64,000 bases of DNA from Candidatus Melainabacteria bacterium (GTDB lineage Bacteria > Cyanobacteriota > Vampirovibrionia > Obscuribacterales > Obscuribacteraceae). Each line of letters opens with the position of its first letter. The first letter of the stretch is position 1. Under the pieces are notes generated by a model that saw only the letters and a list, made by a program, of their open reading frames with translations, made no database searches and was not told the origin of the DNA. The stretch is from positions 868,001 to 932,000 of the forward strand of contig QKMZ01000006.1 of assembly GCA_003242885.1 (NCBI GenBank), read 5' to 3'. This document shows, in pieces, positions 42,433 through 57,726 of this stretch. Both the position numbers and the translations under genes were made by a program.

Positions 42433-44697
42433 CTATTGTGGACTGACAGTTAATCCTGAGTCCATGTGGAAATTGACGCCACCCTCGCTGCGGAAACCGG
42501 TGATTGAGAAGCCATTGTTTGTTTTCTTCAATCCGAAGTCAGCCTTGCCACGTCCAGTTGGAAGCGATTTTATATTGACTTGATGGATAAAACTCGGCAT
42601 AAACGGTCGCTTTATATTGAGCTGCCCTTGTGCACCTTCGACGTCAATTCCGATGCATGCTTCTAGCATTTGAAACAAACAGCCTGACGCCCACGCCTGG
42701 GGCACACAAGAAACAGGATAGGAAACAGGAGGCGCTCCTTTCGCCCGCGTGAAGCCGCAGAAGAGTTCCGGTAAGCGATTGTCACCGAACGCCGTACCTG
42801 CATCAAAGAGTCCGGAGAAAATGAGTCCAGCGTCTTCTTTGTGGTCATTTGCTGCAAGCCCTGAGGCGATGATCGCATTGTCGTGTGGCCAAATTGAGCC
42901 GTTGTGATAGCTAACCGGATTGTAGGCAACTTCATTGCTTGAAAGAGTGCGGATACCCCAGCCGTTGAAGAGCTGGCTTTCCATCAAGGTTTTGCACACA
43001 GCCTCTTTCTTGTCGTCAGCTACTATTCCGCTTATTAAAAGCTGACCAGGGTTTGATGCGACGACATCACATTGTTTTCCGCCTGCTGATAAAGCCATCG
43101 CATAATAGTTCTTACTTGGCATCCAGAATGCGGTATTAAAGTCCTCCTTCAGCTTTTCAGCACGTGCTTCCAATTGTTTGTGTTTGTCTACCTTGCCAAA
43201 TAATCCGTAAATAAACCCCGCGTCTATAAGAGCTTTGTATAAATAGCCCTGGACTTCGCAGGCTGCAATTGGTGCGGTCGCCAGCTTGCCGTCAGAGTAC
43301 ATCATTGAATTACCGGAGTCTTTCCAGCACTGGTTAGCTAGTGCTCCCTCGCCACCATAAGTCAGAAAGCCTTTGCTGGAAGCATCGAGCAAATAAGCGA
43401 CAGCGCGATCTAAATTTGGCAATAATTTGTTGACTGTATCCATGTCTCCAGTGCACTGCAAATACTTGCGCATCAGCATTACCCAAAGTGGAGTGGCGTC
43501 GATAGTTCCGTAGTAAGGATGGAATGGAACGATGCCCTTGGTAGCCAACTCGCCCGTTCTCAATTCGTGCATGATCTTGCCGGGTTCTTCATCTGTTTCT
43601 GCATTCTTTTTTGAACCTTGATATGCAGCTAACATCAACAAGATTTCCTTGGATGTCTTTGGCATGAATAAAACTGTCTGCAATCCCGTTATCGCTTGGT
43701 CTCGCCCGAACGGCACCGCGTACCATGGAAGTCCGGCAGTAAGAGCGGTTCCTCCCTTGACTGGCTGGCGCAAGAGATAAAGATCAAGATATGCCTGATC
43801 CAACATTTTGTTGAATTCAACATTGTCTGTTGAAATTTGTCCGCAATCAGAAAGCCACTTTTTAAAAGAGTCGTTTGCCTGCTCGAGCCTTGCATCATAT
43901 GCCCATGTTTGGCTCTCTTTCTCAATTACAGTAGATGCACTTGTAAGAGAGGAGATTGTCAGCTCTGCCGAACTAGATTGTCCGGGCTTCAATTTAACGG
44001 TCCAATTAAATCCACCGGTTGACATGACTGCGGCGGGCTCGGATGCAATTTTTAGTTCCGTATAAACATTATCCACCGGATATCCATAACGTAGATACGC
44101 ACCGGTAGTGGTATCAATGGTTCTAGGTTTTTCCTTTGACTGAAATCCTCTCACTTCAAACATATCTTTGAAGTCTGCATTTGTGCAAATCGAAATTGCA
44201 GTATTGATATCTTCTGTTGAATAATTTGTAATTGTTATGCGTTCACTAATTCCTTGATACATAGCCACTTCGCGCCGCAGCACAATTGATCGGTCGGCAT
44301 CTTTTTTATTTTGCCTCATTCCATAGATGAAGGTTCCACAAAAACCTTTCACATCTTTAGACAACAGTTCCGGAGCTTGGCCATTCAATACATATCTGAG
44401 TTTGCTCAGCGTTCTTGTGTCATCTCGGTAGAGCCCATAGGCCGAGTTATTACCTCCGGGAATCATTCCTGATTCGTCTAAAACATACATAAGCGCATCG
44501 TGCTTCATCACAATACGGGGTTCGCTCAGCGGATCAAGAGTTTTCTCCGGATCCTTTCCACAAGCGCTTTCATGTACCTTAACTGTGCTGCTTTGTACTA
44601 AATCATCTGCGACCGCAGGTTGACGCAACGTAATCAACGTTGTGAAGATCAGAATGAAGACAAACACTTGTCGGAAGAAGAAAGGCTCTCTACGCAA
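42433..44697 (-). CDS. Secreted amylo-alpha-1,6-glucosidase/glycogen-debranching-like protein
   Basis: GDE N-terminal domain (LSKLRYVLNGQAPELLS...RREVAMYQGISERITITNYS) and catalytic-type region (GLPWYAVPFGRDQAITGLQT...NQCWKDSGNSMMYSDG...NGSIWPHDNAIIASGLA). Start refined to a TTG before a signal peptide. Confidence 0.85.
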   Translation of the reverse strand: MRREPFFFRQVFVFILIFTTLITLRQPAVADDLVQSSTVKVHESACGKDPEKTLDPLSEPRIVMKHDALMYVLDESGMIPGGNNSAYGLYRDDTRTLSKLRYVLNGQAPELLSKDVKGFCGTFIYGMRQNKKDADRSIVLRREVAMYQGISERITITNYSTEDINTAISICTNADFKDMFEVRGFQSKEKPRTIDTTTGAYLRYGYPVDNVYTELKIASEPAAVMSTGGFNWTVKLKPGQSSSAELTISSLTSASTVIEKESQTWAYDARLEQANDSFKKWLSDCGQISTDNVEFNKMLDQAYLDLYLLRQPVKGGTALTAGLPWYAVPFGRDQAITGLQTVLFMPKTSKEILLMLAAYQGSKKNAETDEEPGKIMHELRTGELATKGIVPFHPYYGTIDATPLWVMLMRKYLQCTGDMDTVNKLLPNLDRAVAYLLDASSKGFLTYGGEGALANQCWKDSGNSMMYSDGKLATAPIAACEVQGYLYKALIDAGFIYGLFGKVDKHKQLEARAEKLKEDFNTAFWMPSKNYYAMALSAGGKQCDVVASNPGQLLISGIVADDKKEAVCKTLMESQLFNGWGIRTLSSNEVAYNPVSYHNGSIWPHDNAIIASGLAANDHKEDAGLIFSGLFDAGTAFGDNRLPELFCGFTRAKGAPPVSYPVSCVPQAWASGCLFQMLEACIGIDVEGAQGQLNIKRPFMPSFIHQVNIKSLPTGRGKADFGLKKTNNGFSITGFRSEGGVNFHMDSGLTVSPQ

Positions 44698-46513
44698 GTG
44701 GAAGTGTGAATTTGAATATGCTTCCTTCACCAATTTTGCTCTCCGCCCAAATCTTTCCGCCGTGCAGTTGAACAAAGGCTCTGCAAATTGCCAATCCCAA
44801 ACCTGAGCCTTTCTCCTGGTTGTTTTCCGAGCGCCGCTCAACCTGTTGGAACTTTTCAAAAATATTCTCCAGCTTGTCTTCCGGAATGCCTTCACCCTCG
44901 TCTCTGACGGCAATCACGGCTAATTCTCTGCCACCTTTTGCAATCTCTCTTTCTGCAGAAAGCGTCACTTTTCCGCCCTTAGGCGAGAATTTTACGGCAT
45001 TTCCGATCAGGTTATTGAGTATACGATCAATTCGCTCCTCATCACCCATCACGATCAGATCTGTTTCAACAAAATCCAGTTTTACGTCCTTAGATTCTGC
45101 AAAGACCGTTAGGCTGGAGACAGAGGCGTCGAAACACTCGTTAAGTGAAACTTTTGTCCGCTCAATATGCATCTGACCACTGTCAGCTTTTTCAACGTCC
45201 AGCAAATCATTTACGAGAGTAAGGAGGCGATCTACATTTCGACCGCCCGCATTTATGAAGTCATTTCCCTTTTCATCAAGCTTTCCGTGTTTTCCAGTTT
45301 CTAAGAATGTAAAAATGTGACGGAGGGTCGATAACGGTGTGCGCAGATCATGAGTAACCATAGCCATAACTTCCTGCTTGAGAGTCTCTGCTTTTCGGCG
45401 CTCGGTAATGTCGTGAATCACACAGAAAGTTGCATCTTCTTCTTTTGAGAAGTGCGCGGAGAGCAGCACGTGGACGATGGTTCCGTCACTCCGTTTCATT
45501 CTTAGCTCAACCGGACTCGAGTCGCCTTGCGTTTTCAAATTTGCAAATATCTGGAGCACATTTTCGCGACTATCCGCAACGTAATCGGCAAAATGGGTGC
45601 CGAGTAGGTTCTCTGGAGCGTGATGTAGAACTGTTTGGCTGGCTGGATTTGCCGCTGAGAATTTGCCGTTTGAGTCAATTGAGCAAATGAAGTCTCTGGC
45701 ATTGTCTATGATTGCTCTCTCTTTCTTGGCTGCTTCTTTTAGTGTCATTGCCATGCTGTGAAAAGTCTTGTCCACAGTTGCAATTTCGTCATTGCCGCCA
45801 ATAGGTGTGTGCAATGGTACATTAGCAGCTAATCTCAGGCTGTTCTCGTTGAGTATGCTCAAACGATTGGCAATTGTTCGCGTTAAATAAAATGCGACAG
45901 CGATTGCAATTATCGTGTCGGCGATCGCGATCAGAATCATCAACTGTTTCGATAATTCTCTCAATCTCGCTTGCTCTACAGCATCGACTTCGGCAAGTTT
46001 TTCTTGTTGCGCTGCGTGCTCCAACAGCCCACCACCAAGAATTGATTTGACGTCTTTGCGCACGTCTTTCCAGAGTTTTTTTCGCAGTTTTTGAACCTGC
46101 TCTGGACCATCTTCGGGAATTTCTTCGAGACGTCTGATGAGCCCAAATGTTTTGTAAGCTGCTTGCTCCGATGCAACAACACACTCATAGAGCTTCGCAT
46201 CATGTTGAACACTGTCTTTCAGTTGTTTGTAGTGAAGTTCGTGACGGCGATGAAGCATCTGCAGTTTTTCATCGCCAGTTGTTACATGACGCAGCGGATT
46301 GTCGCGCCCAAATTCACCGATGTATTCGTAAACATCCTGTGAAAGAACATTAATTGCGTCCGATATCTTTTTCGCATTAATCGACTCAAGCAGGAGCACT
46401 TCGGCATCGTTCTCCAGTTTCGCAACCCAGAATAAAGTGGCCAATTGCAGCACCAACGGCACAAGAACCAGGGCCAGTACCTTTGTCGATAGTGATAATC
46501 GTGGACGTCGCAT
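44690..46513 (-). CDS. Sensor histidine kinase (HAMP, PAS)
   Basis: VTHDLRTPLSTLRHI H-box, NLIGNAVKFSPKGG, VRDEGEGIPEDKLENIFEKF and GSGLGLAICRAFVQLHGG. Confidence 0.95.
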   Translation of the reverse strand: MRRPRLSLSTKVLALVLVPLVLQLATLFWVAKLENDAEVLLLESINAKKISDAINVLSQDVYEYIGEFGRDNPLRHVTTGDEKLQMLHRRHELHYKQLKDSVQHDAKLYECVVASEQAAYKTFGLIRRLEEIPEDGPEQVQKLRKKLWKDVRKDVKSILGGGLLEHAAQQEKLAEVDAVEQARLRELSKQLMILIAIADTIIAIAVAFYLTRTIANRLSILNENSLRLAANVPLHTPIGGNDEIATVDKTFHSMAMTLKEAAKKERAIIDNARDFICSIDSNGKFSAANPASQTVLHHAPENLLGTHFADYVADSRENVLQIFANLKTQGDSSPVELRMKRSDGTIVHVLLSAHFSKEEDATFCVIHDITERRKAETLKQEVMAMVTHDLRTPLSTLRHIFTFLETGKHGKLDEKGNDFINAGGRNVDRLLTLVNDLLDVEKADSGQMHIERTKVSLNECFDASVSSLTVFAESKDVKLDFVETDLIVMGDEERIDRILNNLIGNAVKFSPKGGKVTLSAEREIAKGGRELAVIAVRDEGEGIPEDKLENIFEKFQQVERRSENNQEKGSGLGLAICRAFVQLHGGKIWAESKIGEGSIFKFTLPLA

Positions 46514-46576
46514 GCGAAGTAGCGGATCACTATGGGTATACTCAGTATTATTACCATTGTCCTTACATGCGAAACG

Positions 46577-47269
46577 ATGGCAAAGATACTGCTTGTCGAA
46601 GACGATCAAGATTTCTCTATGATGGTGAAAGCCGGACTGGAAGGGGAAAGGCACGTAGTTGACTGCGCTTTTGACGGCGATGAAGCCATGCATCTGCTGA
46701 AGAGCGAAGAATACGATCTTGTGGTCCTTGATTGGCAATTGCCAAAGCTTTCCGGGATCGATGTCCTGAAAAAACTTCGTCAGATGGGAAAATCTGTTTC
46801 AGTGATAATGCTCACAGGAAAGTCGGCAATCGACCACAAAGAAGAAGGCATTGATACCGGTGCCGATGATTATCTGACCAAGCCTTTTGATATGAGGGAA
46901 CTTCATGCACGGCTCAGAGCACTTTTGAGACGCCCGGGAGGCGCTGCCGGCGTGACTGGAAACTGTCTAGTCGCCGGAGATTTGGAACTTGACCCCGTTA
47001 AGTATCGGGTGACAAGAGGCGGAAAGGATGTTCACCTCACGCCAAAGGATTTTGCTCTTCTCGAGTTTTTTCTTCGCAACCCCGATCATGTCTTCAGCGT
47101 CCAAACAATACTTTCTCGCGTTTGGAGCTATGAATCTGATGCTTCACCTGAAGGTCTACGCGCAGCAATTCGTCGAATTCGCAAAGCCGTAGATATCACT
47201 GACGATCCGACAGAATCGATAATTGAAAACGTTGCGAGAGTCGGCTACAGATTGCGAAAACAGAATTAG
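46577..47269 (+). CDS. OmpR-family response regulator
   Basis: AKILLVEDDQDFS, DLVVLDWQLP, DDYLTKPFDMRELHARLRALLRR and a winged-helix C-terminus. Divergent from the histidine kinase. Confidence 0.95.
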   Translation: MAKILLVEDDQDFSMMVKAGLEGERHVVDCAFDGDEAMHLLKSEEYDLVVLDWQLPKLSGIDVLKKLRQMGKSVSVIMLTGKSAIDHKEEGIDTGADDYLTKPFDMRELHARLRALLRRPGGAAGVTGNCLVAGDLELDPVKYRVTRGGKDVHLTPKDFALLEFFLRNPDHVFSVQTILSRVWSYESDASPEGLRAAIRRIRKAVDITDDPTESIIENVARVGYRLRKQN

Positions 47270-47273
47270 TTTC

Positions 47274-48803
47274 TTACTTTGGCTTGTAGTCGTATGCAAT
47301 TGACTGCTGCAAGCGGAGTTTTGATTCTTCCGTATGACCGAGCGCAGCAAGGGCCTTTCCGAGCCAATAATAGGCAGAACCTGTTGTCTCTTCCAGGGCG
47401 ATTGATTTGCGAGCAGCCTTTACGGCATCGGCATGCCGCCCCAATCTTTCGTATATCTCGGCAAGACGGCTGTAATAAATCGTGCTTTCGTGGGGAGTGG
47501 TTTTGCACTGGTCTAAGGCTGTTTGAAAATCACCTTTTGCTACTGCCGCATCGATAATGCCATTCGCAATAGATGATTTGTTTTCTTTGTTCTTGATTGA
47601 TCTAAAGCATTTTATGGCTGTCGCGTAATCTTTCATTGCCAGATAGCTATACGCGCGCTCTATCTGCAAAGTCATGTCACCAGGCTTCTTCTTCAGCTTT
47701 TGTTCTACTGATGCAATATCCTTCGCATAAAGTTCTTTTGCTTTCTCTGCTTGGTCTGCATCTTCATAAACACTTGCGAGCCAATTATTGCTCCAGGGTG
47801 ATTTGCTCTTTTTGAGTTTTTCAATGACATATTCAAAGTCGCTCATCGCTTTTGCTTTATCACCCAGATCTAGATAAATGTGTGCGCGCGATAATCGCCA
47901 GTCGTCTTCTTCCGGTTCTTGTGCAATCAGTTCAGTCAGATAAGCGATGTGTTTCTTTTGCGCATCTGCCAAGCCAGCACTATCACCTAAGGCCCTCGCA
48001 GTTGAAGCTGCATACTCGTATGCGCTTTCTTCTTTTGATGTGTCGCGCAACCATGCATTTGCCGCATCTTGTGCTTCTCTAATTCTGCCTTTTGCAATCA
48101 AAAGATCAATTAGATCTGAGAATGGTGATTCTTCTGCTGAGTAGTTCGCATTTGAAGAAAACGAACTACTCTCCTCTGGATATTTTGTGGATTCTTGAAA
48201 CTCTAAGATTGCCTTGTCCAGCTCTTTTCTTTTTTTCAAAACTCGGCCAAGTGCATTGTGTACTCGACGCTTGTCGTGATCAAAGGTCAGCGATTTTTCA
48301 TAGTCTCTTTGAGCTTCTGAAAGTTTGTCTTTCCAGTGGTATGCAATTCCCCGTTGGTAATACAAACTTCCATCATTTTTCTCATGTTCGATAGCTTTAT
48401 CTAAATCGCGGATTGCATCATCATATTCTTTCTTGTAGGTGTGTAGTTGCCCTCGATAGCTGAGGCACAGATAGTCTTTGGGGTCCAACTCAATTGCTTT
48501 GTTGAAATCAGACATCGCCTCATCTTTTCTGTCTAGCCACCAGCGAATGAGACCTCTCTCTCTGTATAAGTTTGCACGGTGAGGGTACTTCTTTATCTGA
48601 GCGGTAAAGAGTTTTTCTGACGCCTTCCAGGCGTCTTCACTAGAAAATTTTGGATGTGCCCAACTAGGTATGAGCTTATCCATGTCTTTTGGCGGGCTTT
48701 TAGAAAGTTGAAAACAAATTGCCGTGATACCACCGATCACGATAACCATGGCGCACCCAAGCCAGAGTCCGAGCTTCTGGCCGAAGGATAGCTTTGAATA
48801 CAT
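47274..48803 (-). CDS. Membrane-anchored TPR-repeat protein
   Basis: N-terminal TM and many TPRs (ANLYRERGLIRWWLDRKDEAMSDFNKAIELDPKDYLCLSYRGQLHTYKKEYDDAIRDLDKAIEHEKND). Confidence 0.88.
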   Translation of the reverse strand: MYSKLSFGQKLGLWLGCAMVIVIGGITAICFQLSKSPPKDMDKLIPSWAHPKFSSEDAWKASEKLFTAQIKKYPHRANLYRERGLIRWWLDRKDEAMSDFNKAIELDPKDYLCLSYRGQLHTYKKEYDDAIRDLDKAIEHEKNDGSLYYQRGIAYHWKDKLSEAQRDYEKSLTFDHDKRRVHNALGRVLKKRKELDKAILEFQESTKYPEESSSFSSNANYSAEESPFSDLIDLLIAKGRIREAQDAANAWLRDTSKEESAYEYAASTARALGDSAGLADAQKKHIAYLTELIAQEPEEDDWRLSRAHIYLDLGDKAKAMSDFEYVIEKLKKSKSPWSNNWLASVYEDADQAEKAKELYAKDIASVEQKLKKKPGDMTLQIERAYSYLAMKDYATAIKCFRSIKNKENKSSIANGIIDAAVAKGDFQTALDQCKTTPHESTIYYSRLAEIYERLGRHADAVKAARKSIALEETTGSAYYWLGKALAALGHTEESKLRLQQSIAYDYKPK

Positions 48804-48815
48804 CTGCTTACCGAA

Positions 48816-48941
48816 TTAGAATTCGGCAACAAGTCCGAAACAGGCAATCATGATGATGAAGCCGAAGTAGAGTAGAAGGAACCACATCCAGCGAATGTTC
48901 AGCTCGATGTCGGACATTTTCTCTTTCTTTTCTACTGCCAT
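48816..48941 (-). CDS. Small single-TM protein (41 aa), absent from the supplied ORF track
   Basis: Manual translation MAVEKKEKMSDIELNIRWMWFLLLYFGFIIMIACFGLVAEF*. RBS-like aaagga upstream. Lies between the mvhD-like and TPR genes on the same strand. Confidence 0.7.
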   Translation of the reverse strand: MAVEKKEKMSDIELNIRWMWFLLLYFGFIIMIACFGLVAEF

Positions 48942-48988
48942 GACTTCAATCCTTTGATTCTTTTCTGATTCTGAAACCTTCGGAACTA

Positions 48989-49393
48989 TTACTTAGCTTC
49001 CGGCGTGGCGAGATTGTTCAACGTTGCGATGAATTCTTTCGACTCTGAGATAAAGCGTTGACGCTGCGGTTTTGCCAGCCAGAGCGCCAGAATGCGGCGT
49101 CTGTCGGTACCTTTTTTGAGGGTCGGAGGACGATCGCCAAGAAGGCGTTCGCGAATCATGCGGTTGCCTTCGCGATAGTAGCAGTCGCCGATTTGGCAGC
49201 CTGTGACTACGACACCGTCAGCACCAGCTTTGATGGCATTTTCAATCATCAGAGGTTGAATCATGCCTGAGCAAGGGAATTTGACTACCTTCATGCCGGG
49301 CACTTCAGTGCAACTGCCTGAGTCGTCAACGATGCCGCTTAAATCGCAAGCGCGTTCGCAGATAAGTGTGATTACTTTCTTTGCATCAGACAT
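48989..49393 (-). CDS. MvhD/FlpD-like hydrogenase/heterodisulfide-reductase iron-sulfur subunit
   Basis: ICERACDLSG, VVKFPCSGMIQPLMIENAIKAGADGVVVTGCQIGDCYYREGNRMIRER matches the MvhD-type cysteine pattern. Confidence 0.88.
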   Translation of the reverse strand: MSDAKKVITLICERACDLSGIVDDSGSCTEVPGMKVVKFPCSGMIQPLMIENAIKAGADGVVVTGCQIGDCYYREGNRMIRERLLGDRPPTLKKGTDRRRILALWLAKPQRQRFISESKEFIATLNNLATPEAK

Positions 49394-49398
49394 TGGTG

Positions 49399-50577
49399 TT
49401 ACCCTTTCGCCTCCAGAAGAGCCTTAATCTTCGCGTTTACTTCCGCATCCGGAAGGTCAGGCAAATCGATTGCATCGAATGCGCAAGCGCCGACGCATAC
49501 GCCGCAGCCTGAGCAGCGGAAATCTTTTACTGTCGCCAACAATTTGAATCGTGAACCAGCTGGTGCAGGCACCATTTCAATTGCCTGGTACGGGCAGTCT
49601 TTGTAGCAGAGCGAGCAGCCTGTGCACTTGTTGAGCACAACCTCAGCTGTTTCGATTGCTGGTTGTTTCGGAATCATCAACCACGGTGCAGCCGTAATTG
49701 CGACGGTACCGAGAATCATCACTGCCCAGTAGCCCATGACCGGCATTTGGCTGAGCATGGCATAGGGCCATAGGAAGAACCAGTCGATGTCGAAGGATAC
49801 AGGCTGCTTGTTGAGGTCAGCCATGTTTCCACTGCTCAATGGCCATATGAATACGCAGACGAGAACCAGAGCGGTCAAAATGTAGTTCACTGCCGGTGGT
49901 GGCGTGAGTACCGGTCTGGTCATACGCAGGTAGTGAATCCAAAGACCGAAGAGCAGGAAGAATGAAAGACCAATGTGAATGAAAAGGAAGTTGGAAAGAG
50001 TCAGGTTAGTTATCTGATCTCCGTTCAAGAACCAGGTCTTAAGGCCAGGTCCAACTACCGGCAATGATTCGAATGCGCTGGCAGTCATTCTAGTGAGCAA
50101 TAGCGAGCGGTCATCCCAAACCAGGTAGAAACCGGTTTGACCAATGAAGAGTACGAAGATCGCCAGAACAATACCGGAAACCCATTGGAGCCAGCGGTAC
50201 TGACGGTAGCGATCTGTAAACCATACGCGCAGAGCGTGCAGCAAGATGGTGATTACCATCGCGTCGCCTGCATAACGGTGGATACCGCGGATGACACCAC
50301 CGAAAGGAAGAGACTTGGTGATGTAATCAACTGAGGTCCAAGCGTTGGTCAGAAGCTTAGAGTTATAAGCATTGTCGATGGTCGGGATGTAGTATGCGAA
50401 AAGCAGCAGCCCGGAGAGGTACAGCACCCACAGATAGTACTGGGGAAGAGCACCGTGATAGTAGAACGGATTGTATTTACTGGTCATGAACGCGTTAATC
50501 GCGTTTTCAATGGCCAGCGTCAAACCGTTGAAGGCTTTTAGCGGGTGATTATCGACAATCTTTTGCACTGGGGTCAT
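49399..50577 (-). CDS. Cytochrome b (b6-like, four heme His) fused to a C-terminal 2x[4Fe-4S] ferredoxin domain
   Basis: GIHRYAGDAMVITILLHALRVW and FIHIGLSFFLLFGLWIHYLRM His pairs. Ferredoxin motifs CTGCSLCYKDCP and CSGCGVCVGAC. Confidence 0.9.
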   Translation of the reverse strand: MTPVQKIVDNHPLKAFNGLTLAIENAINAFMTSKYNPFYYHGALPQYYLWVLYLSGLLLFAYYIPTIDNAYNSKLLTNAWTSVDYITKSLPFGGVIRGIHRYAGDAMVITILLHALRVWFTDRYRQYRWLQWVSGIVLAIFVLFIGQTGFYLVWDDRSLLLTRMTASAFESLPVVGPGLKTWFLNGDQITNLTLSNFLFIHIGLSFFLLFGLWIHYLRMTRPVLTPPPAVNYILTALVLVCVFIWPLSSGNMADLNKQPVSFDIDWFFLWPYAMLSQMPVMGYWAVMILGTVAITAAPWLMIPKQPAIETAEVVLNKCTGCSLCYKDCPYQAIEMVPAPAGSRFKLLATVKDFRCSGCGVCVGACAFDAIDLPDLPDAEVNAKIKALLEAKG

Positions 50578-50613
50578 CCTCTTCTATGCGTCTTCGCTAA
50601 AACTTCTTGCGAC

Positions 50614-50997
50614 CTATTTCTTTACCGGTAAAACTGTCTTCTCTTCCGCATCTTCTCTGCCGATAATCATGATGGCGATACCGCCAATTGTCAGAGCTAC
50701 TCCCATAAAGAGAATGTAGCCATAGTCTCCGAGGCTGGCTGTCGACTTCGGATTTACTGAGACGCCTTTGCCTTGCAAATACTTCGTCAAATCTTCGCCC
50801 AGACTGGGTGTGAGTGAATTGAAGAAACCAGCGATTGCGCCGTGCAGACCGATTCGTGAGGTCAGGTCGGTCAACCAGTCAGGTGTGGCTCCGGTGAAAC
50901 CTAATTCAGACCATGCCATAAGAACACTGACGGCGACAACGGCGCCGGCGAATGCCAGGAGTATGATGCCCTTCGGTGAAAGTATGTACTTAATCAC
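50614..50997 (-). CDS. Hypothetical membrane protein in the respiratory operon
   Basis: Two TM helices. Same-strand tight spacing with the cytochrome b genes. Confidence 0.7.
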   Translation of the reverse strand: MIKYILSPKGIILLAFAGAVVAVSVLMAWSELGFTGATPDWLTDLTSRIGLHGAIAGFFNSLTPSLGEDLTKYLQGKGVSVNPKSTASLGDYGYILFMGVALTIGGIAIMIIGREDAEEKTVLPVKK

Positions 50998-51009
50998 TAT
51001 GAATTCCTT

Positions 51010-51381
51010 TTACCTGGTTCCGTTTCGTTCTGCGAGTTTTGCTTCGATTTTGTCGAACAATTTGACCTTGCGTACCAACTTCCCTGTCGACTTTTCTTCG
51101 ATGTAGATCCAGTAGCCCTGGACTGCTAGGAGCAGCATGGTTAGCGTGGTGCCGAAGAAAAGATATGCACATGGAATGAGACCGGGCTCTTTTTGAACTT
51201 CACGCCAACCCTCGAAAAACCAGGAGAGCGTGATTACCGTCAGAGTAAAAGCGAAAAGCCTTAAGGGCAGTTTCACTTTCGTTGGTTTGACCAGGGCTTT
51301 CGTTTCCACAGCGACGCTAGCATCACCTGTGGTGACGTTAGTGTTGATTGAGCGTGGGTCCTTTTTCCCGGTCAAGTTCAT
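51010..51381 (-). CDS. Hypothetical membrane protein in the respiratory operon
   Basis: Start refined to MNLTGKKDP. Two TM helices. Overlaps the stop of no other gene. Confidence 0.7.
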   Translation of the reverse strand: MNLTGKKDPRSINTNVTTGDASVAVETKALVKPTKVKLPLRLFAFTLTVITLSWFFEGWREVQKEPGLIPCAYLFFGTTLTMLLLAVQGYWIYIEEKSTGKLVRKVKLFDKIEAKLAERNGTR

Positions 51382-51388
51382 TCCCCGA

Positions 51389-53179
51389 TTATGTTGATAC
51401 TGATGCTGGTTGAGCCGGTGCCGGTTTAGGGGCGGGCTGAGCACCAGATTTGAAGTTCCAGACCATGTAGGCGCCTACGACTGCAAAAACTGCACCTGCA
51501 ATCATCCATGTCCAATCCCAAAATGGAATCGGCAACGGATAGAAAACGCCTTTGGTGGTCGTTTCGATATTTGTGGCACGATTCATTCTGTCGCAGAATA
51601 CGACATAGTCGTAAGCCCAGCGGTTGGTGACCAGGTAGTCAACCATGCCCAAATATTTGGGGTGCTCCGGTGTAAATGTCGGAATCCAATTGACTATCCA
51701 ATCGACCGGTGACGTCATCTTGCAGTGTTCAAGAATCTGGTTGAAGGCTGCCTGAACATCTGGACCGCCTTTGGCCACATAGTTGTCCTTGAGCCAGTCT
51801 TGCCAGTCATTTTTGTAGGTAGATGCGAAGTACGTGGAGGTTGGTTGAACCTTACGCATAGCTGCTTCCAGCTTGTCAGCTTCCGGAAGAAATGGACGCA
51901 TCACACCGTAGAACCACTGTTGGAACATGGGTCCCCGGAACATTTCCACTTTCGCCATGTAGTAATAGACGAATCCCCAGAATGCTTGCGAAGCACCGAT
52001 GATTGCTATTACGAGCGCACCTTTCCATTGTTTTGCACGTTGGACGGCGTCTTTGTTTTGCCACATGAGCCAGAGCTGCAGACCCATACCTACGTTGACA
52101 GTGAGGTATGTGAAGGCTCTCCAATACGGAGGATCTGTGTGGATGTTGGCGATGTTAGCGATGATGAGCAGTGAGAACACGATCCAGCTCACGAGAGCCA
52201 TAATCACTACCCAGAATATGAATGGTCTCTTGGTGATGTCTTTCTCCGCACCGGTTAGCCAAACGTCCATGAATGGCAAGCCGACAACGATAAGAGGCAA
52301 CACGATGGTGATTTCTGTTGCAACGACCGGCTCCAAGTATTTGTACATTTGGTACAAACCAAGGAAGTACCAGTCAGACAAAATCGGAAGCGGTGTGACG
52401 TCCGGATCTGACCGTTTGCCCTGCGCAGCAGGAAGAACGATTGCAACCACAACCAACATCAATGTGATGATGGTGCGCTTCGCCCAGCTGAGTGGAACGC
52501 GCTTGTAGGCGTTTTTGTAGAAGTAGAGTTCTACAAAGATCAAAGGAATAAGAGAGAACGCGAGGTGGATAGAGAAGAATCGCGTGATTGTCTCCTGCGT
52601 GATAGCAGCTCCGCCGCCCAGGAGAACTTCTGCTGTATTCCATCCCATGTGAATAGACTTAACGAGCGGCTGATAGAAGTCGCCCATGACCGGGAATTGG
52701 TCCATGTAAGTCGGGAATGTCGCGAATACCTTCGTCGCCCAAAATGCGCGCTGGTTCCAGATCAAGAGATATCCAGTCAGACCGGAATACATTGAAAGGA
52801 GAAGCGCTACAAGAGCGATTGCGATGTTGAACTCTTTACCAGGTTTGTAATCGGCGCAGATGAACATGCGATACATGCGCATCGTCGCCGCGATGATCAT
52901 GGCGTCGGCACCGTACTTGTGCATGCCCCGCATAAGACCGCCGAACGGAATACCGTTTTGAATGTGGAGAATAGAATCAAATGCCTGCGCTTTCGTAGGC
53001 ACGTACCACATGATGAGCACGCAGCCTGTGAACATAACGAGGAACCAGACCATGTAGAAGATTGGCCCCAGTGAATACCAGGGATTTGTCTTCGCTTCCT
53101 CGCGGTGATGCTCATCGAAAATATCGATGTTGTTGATCCGCGTCTTAACCCAGTCTATGGTTGCATTTACCGCTGACAT
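51389..53179 (-). CDS. Cytochrome b-like protein lacking N-side (bH) heme histidines
   Basis: Aligns by eye with cytochrome b6/subunit IV: FGGLMRGMHKYGADAMIIAATMRMYRMF, TRFFSIHLAFSLIPLIFVELYFYKN and SDWYFLGLYQMYK. Long C-terminal extension. Confidence 0.88.
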   Translation of the reverse strand: MSAVNATIDWVKTRINNIDIFDEHHREEAKTNPWYSLGPIFYMVWFLVMFTGCVLIMWYVPTKAQAFDSILHIQNGIPFGGLMRGMHKYGADAMIIAATMRMYRMFICADYKPGKEFNIAIALVALLLSMYSGLTGYLLIWNQRAFWATKVFATFPTYMDQFPVMGDFYQPLVKSIHMGWNTAEVLLGGGAAITQETITRFFSIHLAFSLIPLIFVELYFYKNAYKRVPLSWAKRTIITLMLVVVAIVLPAAQGKRSDPDVTPLPILSDWYFLGLYQMYKYLEPVVATEITIVLPLIVVGLPFMDVWLTGAEKDITKRPFIFWVVIMALVSWIVFSLLIIANIANIHTDPPYWRAFTYLTVNVGMGLQLWLMWQNKDAVQRAKQWKGALVIAIIGASQAFWGFVYYYMAKVEMFRGPMFQQWFYGVMRPFLPEADKLEAAMRKVQPTSTYFASTYKNDWQDWLKDNYVAKGGPDVQAAFNQILEHCKMTSPVDWIVNWIPTFTPEHPKYLGMVDYLVTNRWAYDYVVFCDRMNRATNIETTTKGVFYPLPIPFWDWTWMIAGAVFAVVGAYMVWNFKSGAQPAPKPAPAQPASVST

Positions 53180-53195
53180 CTATTGATTGACTCCC

Positions 53196-53759
53196 TCAGG
53201 CGATTGAACCGGCTTCTAAACCAATAATCTTGTATGAATCTCCCTCTTTCTTGAGGTCGAATTTACGCGGTGGGCGTGGGGCTGGACCGGAAACGACCTT
53301 GCCGTTTTGGGCGATGTCATAAACGCTCAAGTGGCAAGGGCAGGCGAATACAGGACCTTGCGGCTTGAAGTTATAACCCTTGGCGCAATCTTCCGGCTTT
53401 GGTACCCAGTTGAACACGCAACCGAGGTGCGGGCAAATACGGCTGTAAGCAACAACATCACCTGATGGCAATTTGACGATGAAACCAGGGATTTCACGGA
53501 CTTCTTTGCCTTCCGGGTTGTACTCAACATATTTTTGTTTGAACATGAACTCTAAACATGTCCATTCAGTTGGAAAATCCGTATCTTTGAAAGCCACATC
53601 TTCTTCGGGCCCCGGTTGATCGGAAGGTCCGAAAACATCCAGAGGCTTCAGCGTTGGACGCATGTACCTCAGAAGCGGCGATATGACCAGACCAAACGTG
53701 GCGGCGAGCGGAATAGCTGCCAGAGTCTTCAGAATAATTCTTCTATTTGTGCCTTCCAT
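53196..53759 (-). CDS. Rieske 2Fe-2S protein
   Basis: N-terminal TM. CPHLGCVF and CPCHLSVYD cluster ligands. Start refined to MEGTNRRIILK. Confidence 0.95.
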   Translation of the reverse strand: MEGTNRRIILKTLAAIPLAATFGLVISPLLRYMRPTLKPLDVFGPSDQPGPEEDVAFKDTDFPTEWTCLEFMFKQKYVEYNPEGKEVREIPGFIVKLPSGDVVAYSRICPHLGCVFNWVPKPEDCAKGYNFKPQGPVFACPCHLSVYDIAQNGKVVSGPAPRPPRKFDLKKEGDSYKIIGLEAGSIA

Positions 53760-53772
53760 TTTTCGAACTCCG

Positions 53773-54711
53773 TTACTTTGTCTCGCCCTGAGGCTTAGCT
53801 TCTTCGGGTTTAGCATCAGCGGGTTTGTCTTCCGCTGGCTTAGCATCTTCGGCGTTGGCGTTCTTTTTCGTGTTATCGATTGGAGCGCCTACCGTCGGCG
53901 AGCCGATATTTGCCTCGGCGATTTGTTTGTTGGTTGAGTGGAATGCACGCACGTAGGCTACGAGCTTCCAAATATAAGCCTCATCGAATTTAACTTCTTT
54001 GGCTTTGTCCTCCTTGCCGAGGAAATTGGGCATCCCTTCCCACTTTATGCCATTTGCGATGTGATCCCATAGGATATCGTCGGTTCTGTCGTAAAAACGC
54101 TTATAGTTTTGGAAGTTGGCAGGGTTGGGCTCGAGTACGTTGTACTTGTTGAGCGGACCGTCGCCATAACCCTTAGGACCGTGGCAGACTGCGCAATTGG
54201 CGCCGTATACAGCGGTAACTTTGGCGTATTCTTTCGCATCCAACAGCGGTGCTGAGAGAGAGCGAACGTAATAAACAAGGTTCCAAGTCTTCTGGCTGGA
54301 GATGTCAGCCAAGGTTGTTGGGTGCTTGACGCCGTCTTTGCCGAAGGCGAGGAACATATATTGATCGATCGGCTTTTGTTTGTGACCGTACTCAGGAGAG
54401 GTGAGGTCGATAGCCGACTTGCCGCTGACGCCTTTTCCGTTCGTGCCGTGGCACTCAGCGCAAGAAAGCTTTTCATAAACAACTTTGCCGTCCGGCTCGG
54501 ATGGTTTGTCATCCGGGTAAATGGCTTCTCTTCCACCCTTGGTTACGTCTTTGGAAACCAGCTGTGAATCGTCACCTTTGACGGTAACTTGATTGCCGCA
54601 ACCGGTTACTAGTGTCACCGCCGGTAACACCACTAACAAAAGCGCCAGCAAAGATGTCGTTAGCCCGGCGAATGTTTCAAACGTAAAAACTGGTTTTTTG
54701 GAACGTGTCAT
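53773..54711 (-). CDS. Diheme c-type cytochrome lipoprotein
   Basis: CAECH and CAVCH heme motifs. Lipobox VTGC. Low-complexity Ala/Lys/Pro/Glu tail. Confidence 0.93.
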   Translation of the reverse strand: MTRSKKPVFTFETFAGLTTSLLALLLVVLPAVTLVTGCGNQVTVKGDDSQLVSKDVTKGGREAIYPDDKPSEPDGKVVYEKLSCAECHGTNGKGVSGKSAIDLTSPEYGHKQKPIDQYMFLAFGKDGVKHPTTLADISSQKTWNLVYYVRSLSAPLLDAKEYAKVTAVYGANCAVCHGPKGYGDGPLNKYNVLEPNPANFQNYKRFYDRTDDILWDHIANGIKWEGMPNFLGKEDKAKEVKFDEAYIWKLVAYVRAFHSTNKQIAEANIGSPTVGAPIDNTKKNANAEDAKPAEDKPADAKPEEAKPQGETK

Positions 54712-54718
54712 AACTCAC

Positions 54719-54964
54719 TCAGTAACCGAAGAAAGGAATCCAGGAGAACATTGCCCAAAGAACAATGAAAAAGAAGCAAACAATAAGAAAGAGCGGCGGC
54801 GGTCCTTCGCCGATACGATATTCGGAGACTACTTCATAGTGCTCATCAACGGAGGGAGCGGCTGCTGCAGTTTTTACGGCTGCGGCTGGTTTGCTTGCGG
54901 GTTTTTCTTCGGCAGATTTTTCTGCCTTCACCTCGTCTCCACTGTTTTTTACTTCTTCAGCCAT
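54719..54964 (-). CDS. Small membrane protein resembling a CcoP N-terminal anchor
   Basis: IGEGPPPLFLIVCFFFIVLWAMFSWIPFFGY C-terminal TM resembles the FixP/CcoP N-terminal TM segment. Confidence 0.55.
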   Translation of the reverse strand: MAEEVKNSGDEVKAEKSAEEKPASKPAAAVKTAAAAPSVDEHYEVVSEYRIGEGPPPLFLIVCFFFIVLWAMFSWIPFFGY

Positions 54965-54991
54965 TTCCTACCTCTTTGTGCGCACAATTTC

Positions 54992-55240
54992 TTACTTGTT
55001 GGCAGTCGATGCGCTGAGCCTGATTTTTTCAACGGCTGCCAGCGCCTTTTGACCAGTAGTGTTGTCGTCGCCGTCGTCGAGCATGTCGAACTTGACGTCT
55101 TCCATGTTTTCAAACTCACCGTTCTTGAAGGCCCACAAGATCGCTCCAATGGCCATTACGAAAAACAATCCGCAAATGAAGAAGGCCACATATATTCCAG
55201 AGCTCAATCCTTGTTGGTTGAGAATGCAATTAGGACACAT
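54992..55240 (-). CDS. CcoS-like small membrane protein
   Basis: FVMAIGAILWAFKNGEFENMEDVKFDML resembles the CcoS core (LWAxxSGQFDDLE). N-terminal MCPNC. Confidence 0.6.
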   Translation of the reverse strand: MCPNCILNQQGLSSGIYVAFFICGLFFVMAIGAILWAFKNGEFENMEDVKFDMLDDGDDNTTGQKALAAVEKIRLSASTANK

Positions 55241-56320
55241 CTAGTGACCTCCTTCTTTGGTTCCGGCAGGGTCAGTATTGCTACTGGATTCGGTGCCTTT
55301 TGGGGATGAAGGTGTGGACTGCTGAGGCATCTGATGCTCGGATGGGCTCATGTTGTCGGACTCGGAGTGATGCCCGTGTCCGCCATGGTGAGGTTCGTAT
55401 TGCTGGTTCGACAATTTCGGAAGATGGATATCTTCTACCTTGTCGATTTGGTTGATGCTGTTGATAGTTACTTCCCGATCTTGAGGAAGCGTTTTCAGGT
55501 ATGCAACCAGATACCAACGTTGCTCTTCAGTGAGGGTCTCTGCCCAGCGCGGCATTCGGGTACCAACAATTCCTTCCGAGACTCTGTAGAACCAGAACTC
55601 ATCAGAGTATTGCTTGTAGTACGGACGGCTGAAATTCGGTGGTTTCTTCTCCAGAGACAGCGCATTCGGACCTTCGCCATAGCCATTCAAACCGTGGCAA
55701 ACAGCGCAGTTCTGAGTATAGATGCCTCTACCGGCATTGGCGCTGGCACTGGCATTGGTGTCAACCGTTTTGCGGTTGTGCAGTGCGACACCGGCTGGTG
55801 TAGTTGTTCTGTACTCGTCCGGTGCTTCGACGAAATCTTTCACATGGCGGCCGTTGCCTAAGCATTGCAAGTAAGCAACCAGGTCATTCATGTCCCTTTC
55901 TGAAAGATAGCTGAAACTCGGCATGATCGAGCCCGGCTTGACTGCGCGAGGCTGAATCAAGTGAGCCTTTTGCCACTCCGAAGCCATGCGTCCGCCTTCA
56001 TTAGTCAGGTCCGGTCCAGTGCGGGCAGTGCCCAACTGGTGCGGTGTTTCCCAGATGTAGTCCCCGGCTTTGACGAGAGGTCCATAACCTCTGTCTTGTA
56101 GACGGGTGAATTGTGTATGGCAGTAGAAGCACCCTTCCCTGACATAGATTTTTCTTCCTCGAGCCGCATCCGCGACGTTCGAAGCGACTTTGGTGTAGTC
56201 GTTGCTTCTGTGCTCTTTGTCGGTGGGATTGAAAAGCACCATCGGCAGAAGAACTGTCGAGAAGATGATGATGAAGAAGGTTGTGACGATCCCGATCGCT
56301 CCTAAACGATAACTGTGCAT
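55241..56320 (-). CDS. ccoO: cbb3-type cytochrome c oxidase subunit II (CcoO) fused to a cytochrome c domain
   Basis: GCFYCHTQFTRLQDRGYGPLVKAGDYIWETPHQLGTARTGPDLTNEGGR (CcoO), then NCAVCHGLNGYGEGPN (class I cytochrome c), then a His-rich tail. Confidence 0.9.
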   Translation of the reverse strand: MHSYRLGAIGIVTTFFIIIFSTVLLPMVLFNPTDKEHRSNDYTKVASNVADAARGRKIYVREGCFYCHTQFTRLQDRGYGPLVKAGDYIWETPHQLGTARTGPDLTNEGGRMASEWQKAHLIQPRAVKPGSIMPSFSYLSERDMNDLVAYLQCLGNGRHVKDFVEAPDEYRTTTPAGVALHNRKTVDTNASASANAGRGIYTQNCAVCHGLNGYGEGPNALSLEKKPPNFSRPYYKQYSDEFWFYRVSEGIVGTRMPRWAETLTEEQRWYLVAYLKTLPQDREVTINSINQIDKVEDIHLPKLSNQQYEPHHGGHGHHSESDNMSPSEHQMPQQSTPSSPKGTESSSNTDPAGTKEGGH

Positions 56321-57726
56321 TACGCTTTCACCTCCGCTGCCTTAGCTGCTTTAGCAACCGATTCGACAGGTTTTGTGTAGAGCGTCTTCCAGACGTTATA
56401 TGCGAACAGAAGTTGTCCAAGGACAATCATGATTCCACTTATGCCTCTAAAGAACCAGTAAGGTCTGATCTGCAGTCCCCATTGATCGACCGGAATGCCC
56501 ATAGCCCAACCGGCCGACTGAATCAAACCGGCGATGGTGAGAGATGTCATCATCAGGAGGAAGCCAAGGAATTTCAGCCAGTAGTGAGCGCGGATCAGAC
56601 CCTGGCTGTAGAACTCCTTACCGGTCAATTTCGGCAACGAATAATAGATTGCCGAGGTGAGGATAAAGGAGAAAGTTCCCAGCAAAGCCAGGTGGGCGTG
56701 TCCGACAACCCACTGAGTGAAGTGCAAGTACCAGTTCACCCAGCGGGTAGCCTGGAAGGGCCCTTGTACGCAGGTGACCAAGTAGAACATACAAGATGTC
56801 ACTGCAAAGCGCAGTGGCAGATCGGTGACGGCCTGACCCCAGCGACCCTTCATTGTCATGAAGAAGTTGGTCAATACTGTGAGTACGGGCACTAAAAGGA
56901 ATATTGAAGAGATGATCGCAATTGCCTTGAGCCATTCGGGCACAGGCGATTGAGTAATGTGGTGCGTACCGGTGGGTGCGTAGAAGAGGGCAATACCCCA
57001 GAACCCCAACATCGACAAGCCGTGGCTGTAAAGCGGTGCCTGCGTCAGTCTGGGTAGCAGGTAATACATCATTCCTACGCCGACAGTGGTAAACCACATG
57101 CCCAGAATGTTGTGTCCATAGAACCAACCGACGATCGCATCATTAAGACCGGGCAAGGCGACGAAAGTACGCTGACCGATGATCCAGACAAGAGGGAACC
57201 AGAAAAGCGACCCGAGGAAGTACCAAAGGGTTACATAGAGCTTCTTGACCCTCCTGTTCAGGATTGTCATGTAGATGTTGAGTGCAACGAGCACCAGGGC
57301 AACAGCGACAAGCACGTCCAGAATTGCACCCAGCTCTGCGTATTCTCGTCCTTCGGTGTTGCCATTGATGAGAGTGCAAAAGGCCCCGATGAGCACCAGG
57401 TTCCATGCCCACATGGTCATATTTCCTAGTCGCTCCGACCATAGCTTGGTCTTGCAGAGATTTGGAACCATGTAGAAGATGGAGCCGACATATCCCATCG
57501 ATAGCCAACCTACGGCGACCGCGTTGACGTGGAACATCCGCATGTGCGGGAATGCCAACTGCGGCACGTTTTTAACCAGGTCGGGCATGGAAAACTCCAA
57601 GCCGCCGATCATTCCTGCACCCATGCCCCACAGTGACCACCACAGAGCGGATAGGAAGAAATTACGACTGGCGCTGCCCTCTTTATTGCTGAAAAGCTTG
57701 TCTGCAACAGAACTCAACTTGGACAC
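56320..57726 (-). CDS. ccoN: cbb3-type cytochrome c oxidase subunit I
   Basis: RMFHVNAVAVGW, GWFYGHNILGMWFT, ALFYAPTGTHHITQSPVPEW and VVGHAHLALLG ligands of C-family heme-copper oxidases. Confidence 0.95.
   Translation of the reverse strand: MSKLSSVADKLFSNKEGSASRNFFLSALWWSLWGMGAGMIGGLEFSMPDLVKNVPQLAFPHMRMFHVNAVAVGWLSMGYVGSIFYMVPNLCKTKLWSERLGNMTMWAWNLVLIGAFCTLINGNTEGREYAELGAILDVLVAVALVLVALNIYMTILNRRVKKLYVTLWYFLGSLFWFPLVWIIGQRTFVALPGLNDAIVGWFYGHNILGMWFTTVGVGMMYYLLPRLTQAPLYSHGLSMLGFWGIALFYAPTGTHHITQSPVPEWLKAIAIISSIFLLVPVLTVLTNFFMTMKGRWGQAVTDLPLRFAVTSCMFYLVTCVQGPFQATRWVNWYLHFTQWVVGHAHLALLGTFSFILTSAIYYSLPKLTGKEFYSQGLIRAHYWLKFLGFLLMMTSLTIAGLIQSAGWAMGIPVDQWGLQIRPYWFFRGISGIMIVLGQLLFAYNVWKTLYTKPVESVAKAAKAAEVKA

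Follow-up and report, generated by a model that had tools for sequence, protein, structure and literature searches.

It has been debated, mainly from engineered mutants, whether electrons in living cells cross between the two low-potential hemes (bL-bL) of dimeric cytochrome bc complexes (PMC4330944). In the bc1 complex of Rhodobacter capsulatus, G158W inactivates the quinol oxidation (Qo) site and H212N the branch formed by the high-potential heme (bH) and the quinone reduction (Qi) site; placed in opposite halves, the two mutations leave the bL-bL bridge alone, and electrons pass in milliseconds (PMC4330944). Cross-inactivated bc1 with fused cytochromes b was also described by Swierczek et al. 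2010, as cited in PMC4330944. In Melainabacteria, according to the portions of PMC6349859 available to us, petB and petC adjoin C-type oxidases, with a complex III/IV fusion in Obscuribacter, and the complex was called b6f; those portions say nothing of MvhD, of bH loss or of a second cytochrome b. Two further papers, PMC4040986 and PMC4451040, go no further than naming the cbb3 oxidase or complexes I-IV. Here we analyse a 64,000-nucleotide stretch (the window) of contig QKMZ01000006.1 from a Candidatus Melainabacteria bacterium, in which one operon joins a cbb3-type oxidase, a Rieske protein, two cytochromes b and an iron-sulfur (Fe-S) protein of the MvhD/FlpD type. All coordinates are window positions, b1 denotes the cytochrome b of 596 amino acids and b2 the cytochrome b-ferredoxin of 392 amino acids. 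Rieske/cytochrome b genes beside a C-type oxidase were already reported (PMC6349859); what appears new here, judging from the sequences, is the loss of bH in b1, the complementarity of b1 and b2, and the MvhD arm. Our literature search, which did not cover the text of Soo et al. 2017 (Science), found no description of b1 bH loss or MvhD in this operon.

Our analysis suggests, with a probability of roughly 0.6, that the product of the operon is an asymmetric bc:cbb3 complex containing a b1-b2 heterodimer, in which electron transfer between monomers would be obligatory and a port on the cytoplasmic (N) side would most likely admit electrons. The heme bL ligands of b1 (H87 and H205) are invariant in the alignment columns of 63/63 full-length orthologs, whereas its two bH positions carry Arg (55) or Lys (8) at 101 and Tyr (63/63) at 219, with E217 beside them invariant as well; the "bH-less" cytochrome b of the original prediction is therefore borne out by every full-length ortholog. 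All four heme ligands of b2 (H100, H114, H201 and H215) are present in 67/67 orthologs, so the four histidines expected of a cytochrome b are incomplete in b1, complete in b2, and accounted for only when the two are counted as a pair. The Qo motifs differ in the opposite sense. At the place of PEWY, b1 has SDWY (268-271) in 63/63, flanked by conserved residues and read here as a variant PEWY-type motif, and b2 has mostly IDWF; identity of the Qo segments to cyanobacterial b6f is 44% for b1 and 23% for b2. The residue that we take, from general knowledge of the motif, to align with R. capsulatus G158 is always Ala in b1 (63/63) and always Leu or Ile in b2 (67/67). By these residues b1 would be the Qo-bearing half without bH and b2 the bH-bearing half with a degraded Qo site. 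As an internal control, the other cytochrome b of the host genome (contig C15, beside its own Rieske protein) retains both PEWY and the bH-side histidine.

A tree of 51 sequences places b1 in a single clade (100/99) on the side of b6 and canonical cytochrome b, and b2 with fused proteobacterial proteins (100/100). This separation led us to reject recent duplication of one cytochrome b, although the long branches make the deep placement unsure. Within the class, the b1 and b2 trees divide into the same genome groups, which is what joint inheritance of the pair would produce. The AlphaFold model of b1 has a predicted local distance difference test (pLDDT) score of 78, and its best PDB matches are the cytochromes b of bc1 complexes (probability 1.0).

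The operon comprises twelve minus-strand open reading frames (ORFs) that run in one direction from 57726 to 48816, with spacings of -74 to +47 bp by the ORF coordinates. The -74 bp overlap arises because the Rieske ORF is called too long. The genes of the window's operon, followed by the adjoining gene, are as follows (TM, transmembrane):

56320..57726, minus strand: operon gene 1, CcoN-like C-family heme-copper oxidase subunit I, 468 amino acids, GTG start (Pfam COX1 1.2e-80)
55241..56320, minus strand: CcoO with a C-terminal cytochrome c domain, two CxxCH (FixO 5.4e-31, Cytochrom_C 1.2e-20)
54992..55240, minus strand: CcoS/FixS-like single-TM protein, 82 amino acids (FixS 1.2e-5), present in most full-length loci
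54719..54964, minus strand: single-TM protein, possible CcoP-anchor/CcoQ analogue, 81 amino acids (position-matched orthologs 32-83% identical)
53773..54711, minus strand: diheme cytochrome c, probable lipoprotein, 312 amino acids (Cytochrom_C 1.5e-15)
53196..53846, minus strand: Rieske 2Fe-2S protein (Rieske 9.1e-10), true start likely about 53759
51389..53179, minus strand: cytochrome b1, predicted Qo-type half, 596 amino acids (Cytochrome_B 6.2e-22)
51010..51384, minus strand: two-TM protein (two hydrophobic segments); the ORF extends to 51444, start probably 51384
50614..50997, minus strand: fast-evolving two-TM hairpin protein, 127 amino acids (hydrophobic segments; orthologs mainly in Obscuribacterales)
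49399..50577, minus strand: cytochrome b2-ferredoxin fusion, 392 amino acids (Cytochrome_B 3.2e-22, Fer4_7 4.6e-9)
48989..49393, minus strand: MvhD/FlpD-type 2Fe-2S protein, 134 amino acids (FlpD PF02662 4.7e-19), single copy in the genome
48816..48941, minus strand: single-TM protein of 41 amino acids, final gene of the conserved unit (orthologs of 36-52 amino acids in 53 distinct class loci)
47274..48803, minus strand: membrane-anchored TPR protein, outside the conserved unit, co-directional with the operon

This 12-gene respiratory operon is conserved in aerobic, non-photosynthetic relatives of cyanobacteria. Loci were gathered through a scan of GTDB species genomes, including Obscuribacter, Vampirovibrio chlorellavorus and Caenarcaniphilales, and the order of genes 1-12 was invariant in 68/68 distinct loci of the class Vampirovibrionia, to which the host genome (6.7 Mb, 93% complete) belongs. 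Identity of gene order over so many distinct loci argues against a chance arrangement; members undetected at some loci fall beyond contig ends or belong to the fast-evolving small TM genes. Several families of the class have b2 orthologs at about 40-50% identity, the nearest named relatives being metagenome-assembled genomes of Candidatus Melainabacteria/Obscuribacterales, and in photosynthetic Cyanobacteria a search with b2 yields PetB-like matches at ~30% identity. When b1 and FlpD were scored independently of b2 in 289 class genomes, 76 had both, 4 b1 only, 2 FlpD only and 207 neither (b1 in 80, FlpD in 78 and always single-copy), an association with a Fisher p of 4e-62 uncorrected for kinship. 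The six mismatched genomes are 65-86% complete; among class genomes at least 90% complete, b1 and FlpD each occur in 44/244. Both genes lie on one contig in 72 of the 76 genomes that have both.

The original prediction thus located every gene of the minus-strand operon correctly, and the outcome that it named as refuting, a lack of conserved co-occurrence in related genomes, is clearly contradicted by gene order and by the co-occurrence of b1 and FlpD. It had also counted the TPR gene (47274-48803), which we rejected as a subunit: few relatives have weak matches, at no more than 50% identity, and the conserved unit stops at 48816. Beyond this end lie a histidine kinase (minus strand) and an OmpR-type response regulator (plus strand) at 44690-47269, which might regulate the operon. 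Separately, locus L058 carries the Vampirovibrionia operon (about 70% identity) on a contig labelled Chloroflexi, probably a mislabelled or mis-binned record.

Of the parts of a C-family (cbb3) oxidase, a CcoN with metal-ligand histidines and a CcoO are both present, with their COX1 and FixO matches. The CcoN-like protein holds the heme/Cu histidines H66, H205, H255, H256, H343 and H345, and CcoO keeps its two CxxCH motifs in 54/54 orthologs. With 281 bits against TIGR00780 ccoN (cut-off 583 bits), the CcoN-like protein is divergent. No ccoP exceeded the NCBIfam cut-off, and the operon offers as possible counterparts just the diheme cytochrome c, whose orthologs have two CxxCH in 55/56 and a lipobox-like motif in 45/56, and the single-TM protein of 81 amino acids, which is conserved in its C-terminal ~34 residues and gave no match in a Pfam search. 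Both boxes of the Rieske cluster (CxHxxC and CxCH) are complete, as CPH[LM]GC in 61/61 and C[AP]CH in 61/61 orthologs. The two-TM protein at 51010..51384 has orthologs in most Obscuribacterales and Caenarcaniphilales loci and is weak or undetected in many others. Orthologs of the 41-amino-acid protein always follow MvhD, and we observed in them a near-invariant C-terminal motif, IA[CS]FG..AE (here resembling IACFGLVAEF); this protein may be a small, conserved subunit of the kind that automated gene calling could overlook.

On the N side, b2 carries a C-terminal 2[4Fe-4S] domain whose cysteines (C318/321/324/328 and C355/358/361/365) are invariant columns, and six predicted TM segments place this domain in the cytoplasm, near the bH end. 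The four cysteines of the FlpD family are likewise invariant in MvhD (C12, C41, C66 and C71), for which the solved-structure match is the MvhD chain 5odc_D (1.4e-24). The ferredoxin part of b2 and MvhD align with contiguous residues of HdrA2 (571-647 and 649-774), with slightly narrower limits of 571-644 and 650-774 in a separate search. In Delta- and Gammaproteobacteria and in Magnetococcales, FlpD (E 5e-19 in L107) and a b2 homolog share one polypeptide, giving single cytochrome b-2[4Fe-4S]-FlpD proteins (loci L106-L120, e.g., L107:2136-3665, L112:9929-11479 and L120:9959-11524), a fusion which indicates that electrons take a single path through b2 and MvhD. In many of these loci the operon also encodes a heme-copper oxidase and SCO1, with no Rieske gene alongside, and so the b2-ferredoxin-MvhD module also exists outside a b1 complex. 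At many of them the oxidase comprises a COX2 with a CuA-like motif and a COX1 with HSSQQIN replacing HPEVY, possibly a nitric oxide reductase-like enzyme with an N-side electron arm. The original prediction of a bc:cbb3 complex with an extra arm therefore stands as regards a conserved unit that includes a further cytochrome b and an Fe-S/MvhD arm on the N side, but not as a normal bc complex plus an added module, because b1 has Qo without bH and b2 has bH with a degraded Qo.

In the asymmetric complex that we propose, b1 would oxidise quinol at its Qo site. The first electron would pass from the Rieske protein to the diheme cytochrome c, the hemes c of CcoO, CcoN and finally O2, presumably within a bc:cbb3 supercomplex. 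The second would reach heme bL of b1, cross to its bL counterpart in b2 and continue to the heme bH of that subunit; the crossing to b2 would be forced, since b1 is without heme bH. Heme bH of b2 would adjoin two 4Fe-4S clusters and the 2Fe-2S MvhD on the cytoplasmic side, and there the electron could reduce quinone or meet the Fe-S arm. Through this port, low-potential cytosolic electrons, from ferredoxin or from NAD(P)H through some dehydrogenase, would reduce quinone near bH, and complex III would double as a cytosolic-donor:quinone reductase. In heterodisulfide reductases a 4Fe-4S/MvhD relay feeds HdrA, and relays of the HdrA type usually receive electrons from dehydrogenases. Together with the oxidoreductase candidates and a complex I arm without a detectable NuoF in the host genome, and with bH being a poor donor to cytosolic carriers, this makes entry more likely than exit. 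That the class possesses a natural complex III combining obligatory inter-monomer transfer with a low-potential chain hard-wired via 4Fe-4S/MvhD to cytosolic ferredoxin or NAD(P)H is a tentative proposal, to which we give slightly less than even odds.

The asymmetric heterodimer is supported by gene order and co-occurrence, by the complementary ligands and Qo motifs of b1 and b2, by the HdrA2 match and the fusion, by the parallel trees, and by the canonical cytochrome b used as control. Several observations weigh against the proposed complex. No N-side donor was found in the host genome, where we looked for HdrA, another FlpD and NuoF; the AlphaFold model of the fused L107 protein, although its parts match cytochrome b6 and MvhD, is weak (pLDDT 65.6), too weak for cluster distances; and the fused proteobacterial homologs lack an adjacent Rieske gene, so b2-ferredoxin-MvhD can exist without b1.

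The last of these also underlies the foremost alternative, which is unlikely but has to be taken seriously: two enzymes in one operon, a b1-Rieske-cbb3 complex and an independent b2-ferredoxin-MvhD oxidoreductase passing electrons from a cytosolic donor to the quinone pool only. The proteobacterial fusions in heme-copper oxidase operons fit this arrangement, as does the standing of b1 and b2 as old separate families rather than recent duplicates. However, b1 by itself would give the bL electron no exit, leaving its conserved Qo site and Rieske partner hard to explain, and b1 and FlpD are kept and lost jointly. Rather more doubtful is the same asymmetric complex run outward, with the bH electron leaving via 4Fe-4S/MvhD to a cytosolic acceptor in a quinol-based bifurcation whose high-potential branch ends at O2. 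Every cofactor of an outward path is present (the 4Fe-4S and MvhD cysteines), and the MvhD relays of Hdr complexes can run in both directions, but the host genome reveals no acceptor, and an electron at the potential of bH is usually not reducing enough for ferredoxin or NAD(P)+. It is very improbable that b1 holds a heme at the bH place with Tyr219 as an unusual ligand and Arg/Lys101 close by, in the manner of catalase and other proteins with Tyr-ligated heme: Y219 is invariant and 101 is always Arg or Lys, yet the invariant E217 fits equally well an Arg-Glu-Tyr polar network occupying an empty pocket, and we know of no cytochrome b that uses an Arg/Lys and Tyr pair at bH. An ordinary bc:cbb3 operon with one cytochrome b as a decaying paralog can be dismissed, for although two ligands are gone in one copy and Qo is degraded in the other, decay should leave scattered changes, and instead the replacements hold throughout the class, in which the other functional residues do not vary.

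Returning to the favoured entry of electrons, we searched the host genome for a partner of the arm. No HdrA reached the cut-off, the only good matches being the b2-ferredoxin and MvhD genes themselves (to the C-terminal part of HdrA2), and FlpD has no second copy in this genome; on these grounds we rejected an Hdr or Mvh-hydrogenase partner. A complex I membrane arm is encoded, with NuoF not detected in the 93% complete genome, and there are two candidates for a 2-oxoacid:ferredoxin oxidoreductase. On contig C15, at about 170650-177940 (L153:7654-14941), lie genes that resemble, by eye and by a NuoH-family match, a membrane-bound complex of the Hyf/group-4 hydrogenase type, possibly a ferredoxin-linked enzyme. 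The same contig holds the second Rieske/cytochrome b cluster (L124:7844-11980, about 263343-267479 of C15), which also includes a CydA-like protein with CxxCH and another multi-TM protein, both without an NCBIfam match. In one Caenarcaniphilales family (L032-L037 and L110), an AprA-like flavoprotein lies about 1-5 kb past the gene of the 41-amino-acid protein, accompanied in L110 by an AprB-like ferredoxin. The match to the AprA family is genuine (PRK06854, 799 bits in L033, over the cut-off), but the host genome has no ortholog, so we regard this neighbour as lineage-specific and rejected the AprA/AprB-like proteins as the N-side partner.

If the proposed reading is true, a natural complex with bL-bL crossing as its sole route would settle that such crossing can carry physiological flux, and would offer a clean system for measuring bL-bL transfer. 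An N-side Fe-S arm on complex III would be a new coupling of the cytosolic redox pool to respiration, and the class related to photosynthetic cyanobacteria would possess a donor-wired bc complex, with a bearing on the evolution of the Q cycle and of the ferredoxin-linked cyclic pathways of cyanobacteria.

Comparison with known systems places the operon near several of them. It shares Rieske protein, cytochrome b and oxidase with III-IV supercomplexes (actinobacterial bcc-aa3 and Pseudomonas bc1-cbb3, PDB 8smr), and a diheme cytochrome c as link with actinobacterial bcc-aa3, but in the known supercomplexes the cytochrome b dimer is symmetric and holds four b hemes, and an Fe-S arm on the N side is absent. 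Like cytochrome b6f, it has a cytochrome b on the b6-like side of the tree (b1), though b1 is a single long chain rather than split into PetB and PetD, and its bH is missing. The heme cn position is not Cys in either cytochrome b (mostly Ala, Ser or Gln in b1, Tyr in b2), and given this and the absent PetB/PetD split we rejected the b6f identity used in PMC6349859. The arm follows HdrA2-MvhD of heterodisulfide reductases (PDB 5odc, 8rvu) in having two 4Fe-4S clusters and then a 2Fe-2S MvhD with four invariant cysteines; it differs in that a diheme cytochrome b takes the place of the HdrA flavin domain, and the HdrA flavin subunit of an HdrABC-MvhD complex was not found in the host genome. The fused proteobacterial and Magnetococcales proteins have the same three-part path, many of them beside a heme-copper oxidase, but with one cytochrome b only, no Rieske nearby and an oxidase with HSSQQIN for HPEVY. 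By analogy, the operon looks like a natural version of the cross-inactivated bc1 construct, in which one half has Qo without bH and the other bH without Qo, so that passage from bL to bL is needed. That construct is a laboratory product of one or two Rhodobacter genes, with no Fe-S arm, MvhD or fused oxidase unit, whereas b1 and b2 are two natural, deeply divergent genes retained across a bacterial class.

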